From the NCBI GenBank assembly GCA_021734245.1, contig JAIPJH010000013.1, forward strand, positions 1 through 42,163: a stretch of 42,163 nucleotides of DNA, in the 5' to 3' direction. Positions 1,306 through 25,138 of this stretch are shown in pieces. Positions within the stretch are counted from its first letter, which is position 1. Every line of letters starts with the position of its first letter. A program made the position numbers and the translations under genes. Source of the DNA: Candidatus Cloacimonadota bacterium. GTDB taxonomy: Bacteria > Cloacimonadota > Cloacimonadia > Cloacimonadales > TCS61. The notes under the pieces are model-generated. The model was not told where the DNA came from. It was given only the letters and a program-made list of their open reading frames with translations, and made no database searches.

Positions 1306-1857
1306 ATGGCTTGGATTAAACAGCTAAAGAAAGAAGAGCTTACGGAAGAGCATGAAAAATATTTGAAAGAGATGAAAACTTCCTGGGATCGAATGGGAAA
1401 TATTCTTAAAGTTCAGAGTATTAAACCTTCCTCAATGAAGCAGCACGCTCTTTTCTACAAATCTTTAATGTTCGAAAAATCCTGCTTAACTCGTTCACAA
1501 AGAGAAATGATCGCGGTTGTTGTTTCCAAGGTAAATTTGTGTGAATACTGAATTACTCATCATGGAGAAGCTCTTCTCCATCTTACTAAAAATGAACAGC
1601 TTGTGAATTCTATCAAACAGGATTTTAGAACTGCTGAAATTTCCAATATGGAAAAGTCCATGTTGATTTATGCTGAAGCTTTGGCTACAGAACCCTGTCG
1701 GATCGCTGAAAAACATATAAAGCATTTACGGGAAGTAGGCTTTGATGATGAAGCGATTTTGGATATAAACTTAATTTCCAGTTATTTCTCTTTCGTTAAT
1801 AGACTTTCTTGTGGATTAGGTGTAGAATTGGAAGATTACTTGGTCAATTCAAAATAA
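1306..1857 (+). CDS. AhpD-like / peroxidase-related selenoprotein (in-frame UGA = Sec82)
   Basis: Reading through the TGA at 1549-1551 gives one 183-residue protein with no other stop. It matches the peroxidase-related branch of the AhpD/carboxymuconolactone decarboxylase fold: an N-terminal helical part, TRSQREMIAVVVSKVN, then the catalytic motif C79-E-Y-U82-I-T-H-H. Ordinary members have CxYCxxHH, so TGA stands exactly where the catalytic cysteine should be. The C-terminal half (LIYAEALATEP, GFDDEAILDIN, FVNRLSCGLGVE) is well preserved after the TGA, which argues against a decayed gene. A perfect hairpin follows the TGA (see 1549-1581). Expected function is thiol/selenol-dependent peroxide reduction in the cytoplasm. 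A plain annotation would split this gene into 1306-1551 and 1603-1857. Confidence 0.88.
1549..1581 (+). promoter_or_regulatory. Bacterial SECIS element after UGA
   Basis: TGA lies at 1549-1551. ATGGAGAA (1562-1569) pairs perfectly with TTCTCCAT (1574-1581) around the four-base loop GCTC (1570-1573). Loop size, a G at the first loop position and 18 bases between the UGA and the loop all fit the known rules for bacterial SECIS elements recognised by SelB. The hairpin is inside the coding sequence, as is usual in bacteria. Confidence 0.82.
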
Positions 1858-12801: not shown

Positions 12802-13195
12802 TGGATTAAGCGATCCCCACAATTCTACTTTATTGGGGGAGAAAAGAAAATTTGAAGAGTGAAATTTTTGTTCCGTATTTGCTCCCTGTTAAGGGAGCTG
12901 TTCGAAGTATGAGGACTGAGGGTTTATGGAAAAGATTAACCCCTTTGTCAAGACAAGCTCGACATTTCTCCTTAACAGGGGAAGAAATAAGAGTGAAGTT
13001 TTTGTTCCTTATTTGCTCCTTGTCAAGGGAGCTGTCCGAAGTATGAGGACTGAGGGGTTAGAAAGACGATTAACACCTTTGTCCAGACAAATTGGAATAG
13101 GGGAAGAAATAGGAATTGAGAGAATTCGCTTCCAATTTTGCTCCCTGTTAAGGGAGCTGTCCGAAGTATGAGGACTGAGGGTTAAAAATAATATC
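12802..13195. repeat. Three tandem copies of a MITE-like palindromic element
   Basis: Copy A (about 12857-12990) and copy B (about 12991-13115) are near head-to-tail, and copy C (about 13116-13186) keeps only its left part. Each contains CTCCCTGTTAAGGGAG or a variant that keeps pairing (CTCCTTGTCAAGGGAG in copy B), then GAGGACTGAGG. In copy A the right end CTCCTTAACAGGGGAAG is an imperfect inverted copy of the left end, so the unit is bounded by inverted repeats of about 20 bp. A CCCC/GGGG hairpin at 12815-12839 without a T-run may slow transcription after rfaE2. Short reading frames across the copies are not genes. Confidence 0.85.
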
Positions 13196-24229: not shown

Positions 24230-24376
24230 ATTGAATATTGAAAATTTGAAATTGAATAATTCCAACCTTCCGAATGGTCACAGACCTTCCGAATGGTTGA
24301 AAAAAATGATTAACATCATTGCAATCCTGAGCAGAGACGAAGGATGTGGCATGATAAAAAACGAATGCAAAATATT
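24230..24376. repeat. Repeat remnants between batB and batC
   Basis: At 24264-24298 two direct CCTTCCGAATGGT boxes lie 19 bases apart; diverged relatives occur at 25142-25174 and 4897-4930. At 24325-24352 is a fragment (ATCCTGAGCAGAGACGAAGG) of the TCATCCTGAG-type element seen at 20005. No good Shine-Dalgarno precedes batC. Confidence 0.65.
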
Positions 24377-25138
24377 ATGAAAAAAAAATTGATTATCTTA
24401 ATGCTGATTTCGTTCAGCTTACTTTCAGCAGAAATGCTGAATTACGACAAGGTGCTTTCCAACCTGAAAGGTATTAAATACTACAAAAATGGTGAATACG
24501 ACAAAGCTGGAGAAGCTTTTGAAGATAATGCTATTCAGCATCCAAACGATCCTCGCCTGCAGTTCAATCAGGGAAATGCCCAATATAAAAACGGTAATCT
24601 GGAAGAAGCAGAGAACTCATACAACATGGCTCTAAAAAATCCTGATTTCAAAGATAAATCGTTGGCTCATCAGAATCTGGGAAATGTAAAATTCCAGCAG
24701 AAAGATTATAAGAATGCCATAAAACATTATCGTGATGCCCTCATTCAAAATCCAGACAACCTCGATGCCAGATACAATTATGAACTGGCTGCAAGAATGC
24801 TTCAGAAACAACAGCAGCAACAACAGAATCAGCAGCAACAGCAGCAGAACGACGATAAGAAAGAAAATGAAGATCAGCAAAAGCAGCAACAACAACAGCA
24901 GGATCAACAAAAGAAAGACGAAGAGAAAAAAGACCAACAGCAGCAACAGAAGAAAGAAGAAAATAAAGATCAACAGCCGCAGGAAGAACAGAAAACTGAA
25001 AAACAGAAAGCAGAAGAAAAGAAAAAAGAAGATGCAGAAAAAATTCTGAAAGCTCTCTTGCAGAAAGAGAAAGAAGAGATGAAGAAAGAAAAGCAGAAGA
25101 TGAATGTTGACAAAGCCAAAGAAGGTAAATATTGGTAA
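24377..25138 (+). CDS. batC: BatC: TPR protein with Gln/Lys/Glu-rich tail
   Basis: This protein of about 253 residues begins with a signal peptide (KKKLIILMLISFSLLSAEM). Three or so TPR repeats follow (KYYKNGEYDKAGEAFEDNA, AQYKNGNLEEAENSYNMA, VKFQQKDYKNAIKHYRDA). The rest is a low-complexity Q/K/E/D region with long runs of Gln and Lys, probably disordered. It should be periplasmic. TPR order and position match BatC. The ATG at 24377 is chosen over 24344 because the extra 11 residues come from repeat DNA and would bury the signal peptide. The strand-opposite leucine-rich frame is a shadow of the CAG/CAA repeats. Confidence 0.85.
   Translation: MKKKLIILMLISFSLLSAEMLNYDKVLSNLKGIKYYKNGEYDKAGEAFEDNAIQHPNDPRLQFNQGNAQYKNGNLEEAENSYNMALKNPDFKDKSLAHQNLGNVKFQQKDYKNAIKHYRDALIQNPDNLDARYNYELAARMLQKQQQQQQNQQQQQQNDDKKENEDQQKQQQQQQDQQKKDEEKKDQQQQQKKEENKDQQPQEEQKTEKQKAEEKKKEDAEKILKALLQKEKEEMKKEKQKMNVDKAKEGKYW

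Follow-up and report, generated by a model that had tools for sequence, protein, structure and literature searches.

Selenoproteins of the AhpD-like family, with a CxxU motif, have been catalogued in bacteria on several occasions: 27 sequences (COG2128) in the Sargasso Sea data of 2005 (PMC1088965), 299 sequences in the GOS data of 2008 (PMC2398784), and entries as COG2128 in a 2022 review (PMC9312934) and as TIGR01926, CxxU, in a 2026 review (PMC13188914). In this regard, the initial annotation of the locus described here, which stated that such proteins are known in bacteria, agrees with these sources. The catalogued proteins share with our locus the family, the CxxU motif, selenocysteine (Sec) at the second redox position and a SECIS-like hairpin directly downstream, and the available parts of the same four papers (PMC1088965, PMC2398784, PMC9312934, PMC13188914) name no member from Cloacimonadota, the phylum of our sequence. 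Our literature search returned no paper pairing Cloacimonadota with selenocysteine, and one in which Cloacimonetes appeared together with selenoproteins, for the tRNA. Selenoproteins of this kind have been listed before, and what is new are the members from the host lineage and the Sec-only clade found within our sample.

The locus lies in the window, that is, the whole stretch of 42,163 nucleotides that was analysed, from a Candidatus Cloacimonadota bacterium. AhpD is an alkylhydroperoxidase, its substrates being alkyl hydroperoxides and its reductant a dithiol, and the window protein resembles it in sequence. It has the AhpD core domain (TIGR00778, 37 bits) in common with AhpD of the Mycobacterium tuberculosis type, which carries Cys, not Sec, and belongs to a different subfamily. 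Two further families include a Sec form, the AhpD-related (seleno)protein NF041238 and the YciW-related (seleno)protein NF053654, but the window protein scores 46.9 bits against a cut-off of 175 and 19.1 bits against a cut-off of 310, respectively, and is a member of neither. The N-terminal domain of Sestrin (PA26), a eukaryotic regulator unlike the window protein, gives a weak match over residues 7-145 (26.2 bits, below the Pfam cut-off of 29.4).

One reading frame across an in-frame TGA

The frame opens with an ATG at 1306, meets a TGA at 1549-1551 and runs on, otherwise uninterrupted, to the next stop, a TAA at 1855-1857 (Table 1); the motif around the TGA reads N-L-C79-E-Y-U82-I-T-H-H86. 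Under table 11 the same stretch yields two ORFs, 1306-1551 (81 aa) and a shortened one at 1603-1857, and pipelines that use this table would report a shortened gene, losing the catalytic half. The initial annotation had anticipated this split, together with a single frame of 183 residues open on either side of the TGA, the position of the TGA on the second position of a CxYC motif, meaning its second cysteine, and the retention of family motifs downstream; our analysis agrees with it throughout, U82 of C79-E-Y-U82 being the position in question and both the frame and the invariant residues being intact past the TGA.

Table 1. Features of the selenoprotein locus, in window coordinates
Feature	Position	Strand	Remarks
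AhpD-like (TIGR01926) putative selenoprotein gene	1306..1857	+	183 residues, Sec82, stop TAA
Glu67 codon	1504..1506	+	kept in 34/35 Sec and 57/57 Cys homologues
Cys79 codon	1540..1542	+	predicted resolving partner in C-x-Y-U; invariant in Sec and Cys homologues
TGA predicted to be decoded as selenocysteine	1549..1551	+	residue 82
His86 codon	1561..1563	+	four residues past Sec; invariant
Predicted bacterial SECIS-like hairpin	1562..1581	+	AUGGAGAA-GCUC-UUCUCCAU, 8 bp stem; loop G +19 past TGA

Among the ORFs of at least 60 aa that end in TGA within the window (n = 36), only two remain open for at least 100 codons beyond it, and in the other case (12926-13171) an ordinary gene simply adjoins the ORF downstream in the same frame. 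For the locus under study, chance juxtaposition of two ORFs is excluded because homology spans both sides of the TGA and because independent genomes hold TGA or Cys in exactly the residue-82 column. In a profile search, the joined protein scored 150.1 bits against TIGR01926 (peroxidase-related; cut-off 81.8), with a full-length match that is unbroken across the TGA (residues 2-174 on positions 1-174 of a 178-position profile) and places U82 in the column of Cys; it also lies above the cut-offs for TIGR00778 and Pfam CMD. What appears as a broken gene is thus almost certainly a single, intact one with a UGA read as selenocysteine in the active site, and the protein is very likely a Sec-containing, peroxidase-related member of the AhpD fold. 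Those checks named in the initial annotation that were run (decoding genes, alignment of U with Cys, codons of close relatives) all spoke for this reading.

TGA and cysteine codons at residue 82

The relatives comprise 93 loci, namely 13 from the window's phylum and the best 80 from 84,980 species; identity of the window protein to the nearest of them is about 41-51% among the matches listed. One row of the alignment behind the search profile carried a wrong start; the codon counts, hairpin tests and tree were drawn directly from the loci. Within the phylum the gene was found in 13 of 125 genomes, with TGA at residue 82 in seven and TGC or TGT in six. Over the whole set the codon is TGA in 35, TGC in 36, TGT in 21 and GGA in one, and neither TAA nor TAG occurs in this column in any of the 93; in close relatives the codon is TGA or one for Cys, and no other stop. 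Such alternation of TGA and Cys is the classical signature of a predicted Sec/Cys position.

Residues E67, C79, Y81, U/C82 and H86 are essentially invariant across the 92 Sec and Cys sequences, in both groups. The window protein shows the spacing E-(11)-C-x-x-C/U-x-x-x-H of AhpD, and by this spacing Glu67 would presumably correspond to the proton-relay Glu of AhpD. As a separate observation, a homologue from Thermoplasmata (L107:3001-3531) has lost both redox residues and shows S-A-Y-G in place of C-x-Y-C.

A hairpin downstream of the TGA

The hairpin sequence of E. coli fdhF was confirmed here, and its loop G lies at the same distance from the TGA as that of the window hairpin. A hairpin directly 3' of the UGA with a G in the loop, as used to recognize bacterial selenoproteins, is present in the window, the loop GCUC being a variant. 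Rfam at gathering thresholds returned no family match in the window, and the energy of the window hairpin, taken by itself, does not differ significantly from that of shuffled sequences (z -1.48, about 1.5 standard deviations below); the single hairpin was therefore given weight only in conjunction with a comparative test across the relatives.

For this comparison, 32 bases starting 6 bases past the codon were folded, and the median energy was -8.5 kcal/mol in the 35 Sec genes versus -2.8 kcal/mol in the 57 Cys genes (p about 3e-11, with no correction for relatedness). With a single register imposed on all genes, pairs form in 86.9% of the cells for the Sec genes and in 44.6% for the Cys genes. 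When the 3' arms are shuffled, pairing in the Sec genes falls to 79.1% and none of 2000 shuffles reaches the observed 86.9%, whereas pairing in the Cys genes is unchanged, being no higher than shuffled. The predicted hairpin past the TGA is conserved in TGA genes and not in Cys genes. Compared with most relatives, the window hairpin is offset by 1 or 2 bases and its loop is GCUC, not GG. One relative (L028) has the same offset form built from other paired bases, UGGAGAA/UUCUCCA versus CUGCGAA/UUCGCAG, which is a compensatory exchange within the predicted stem. Selenocysteine insertion at residue 82 is, on these sequence comparisons, predicted with high confidence.

Selenium decoding genes in the host genome

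The host genome (98.5% complete, a draft of 137 contigs) holds selA, selB, selC and selD, selA being partial at a contig end. The tRNA-Sec, with anticodon UCA, adjoins selB on contig C61 (L010:1498-1592, minus strand); selB scores 347.5 bits and selD 359.6 bits. For selA there is only the 5' part (aa 1-151, the N-terminal third), the gene breaking off where contig C50 ends, and the remainder was not found in the same draft assembly. The selD gene (L018:1411-2430; contig C93:8215-9138 of the host genome, G000) contains an in-frame TGA of its own, in HVRAAG-U-AGKVSP, and would thus be a selenoprotein gene as well; this TGA, in the G-U-A-G-K motif, occupies the catalytic Cys position of SelD.

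By our reading, the tRNA-Sec appears to have a 7-bp acceptor and a 5-bp T stem rather than 8+5, and this 7+5 form fits the 'Cloacimonetes type' of tRNA-Sec described in PMC5330540, in keeping with the phylum of the window. With the gene called correctly, an uncultured lineage that has an unusual tRNA-Sec would gain a Sec-dependent redox enzyme. All six of the other Sec-form genomes tested carry tRNA-Sec, a complete selA and a selB, above the curated cut-offs. Most Cys-form genomes carry tRNA-Sec, selA and selB as well, and because of this the decoding genes are necessary, yet neither specific to nor predictive of the Sec form.

Alternative explanations

The two fragments of the table-11 reading would also be produced by a pseudogene that has recently lost its function through a TGA nonsense mutation; however, the same TGA recurs, exactly at the redox Cys column, in 34 further genes that span eleven phyla, and the downstream frame and the invariant residues are intact, which makes this explanation exceedingly improbable. 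An error of sequencing or assembly, turning TGC or TGT into TGA, might be suspected in a draft of 137 contigs, but it is hardly credible when the TGA is found in seven separate assemblies of the phylum, six of them other than that of the host, and when a hairpin of the Sec-gene type is present downstream. Both explanations were rejected on the recurrent exchange of TGA and Cys. If UGA were reassigned genome-wide to another amino acid, e.g., Trp or Gly, an in-frame TGA alone would look identical; against this, TGA ends ordinary genes of the window and interrupts a single gene there, a tRNA-Sec with anticodon UCA is present, and the homologues have Cys in the column, never Trp. Reassignment was rejected, TGA being a normal stop within the window, and its probability is negligible.

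A further alternative accepts the insertion of Sec and concerns the chemistry: the protein could serve another redox role of the CMD/AhpD fold, such as thiol-disulfide chemistry, dehalogenation, or involvement in sulfur or electrophile stress. In line with this, TIGR01926 is 'peroxidase-related' by name, the solved TIGR01926-like structures (2pfx, 3c1l and 6k40) bear the labels uncharacterized or AhpD-like, and the debrominase Bmp8 is among the solved proteins related more distantly. Nor is there conservation of the gene neighbourhood: none of the neighbours (TerB-like, small membrane protein, TldD/PmbA) recurs beside the homologues examined, and context therefore gives no lead on function. 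The E-C-x-x-U-H arrangement, on the other hand, fits the catalytic set of AhpD, and we regard a non-peroxidase role as a serious possibility, albeit an unlikely one. Peroxidase chemistry is the reading that the family suggests for the window protein.

Proposed mechanism

In the peroxidase reading, a complex of SelB, GTP and Sec-tRNA-Sec would bind the hairpin directly past the UGA and place Sec at residue 82, giving 183 residues rather than 81. Sec82, activated by Glu67 and His86 in a proton relay as in AhpD, would then attack a peroxide, or some other oxidised substrate, and become a selenenic acid; Cys79 would resolve this to a selenenylsulfide, to be reduced in turn by a thiol or dithiol reductant. 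We put forward this catalytic scheme because the spacing is identical to that of AhpD and because the residues are conserved.

Evolution of the Sec form

In a maximum-likelihood tree of the 93 proteins, a single branch (support 97/86) has all 35 Sec rows to one side, and one Sec/Cys change is required, versus a shuffled mean of 28. Column 82 had been set to Cys in both groups, and residue 82 is therefore not the driver of this grouping. The Sec rows come from Acidobacteriota, Chloroflexota, Planctomycetota, Bacillota, Bacteroidota, Calditrichota, Zixiibacteriota, Gemmatimonadota, Fidelibacterota and Myxococcota, in addition to the window's phylum. The Sec-only character holds within the sample, which consists of the best 80 loci nearest a Sec-rich query and the 13 loci of the phylum.

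A tentative and rather doubtful proposal is that all Sec members belong to one Sec-only TIGR01926 subfamily, spread over at least 11 phyla without reversion to Cys in the sample, which may have moved between phyla together with its hairpin; this would point to a chemistry in which Cys falls short, unlike the usual case among redox selenoproteins, in which Sec and Cys are interchangeable. A Sec-only clade that held up when all genomes were surveyed would make a good test case for the question why certain redox enzymes never go back to Cys.

Other features of the window

Positions 1-360, near the contig start, contain long direct repeats of low complexity (gggactttgagactttggga..., ccatgacaaccatgacaacc...) that are apparently non-coding. 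The protein encoded at 24344-25138 contains a very long run rich in Gln and belongs to a cluster with von Willebrand-like proteins of BatA/BatB appearance.
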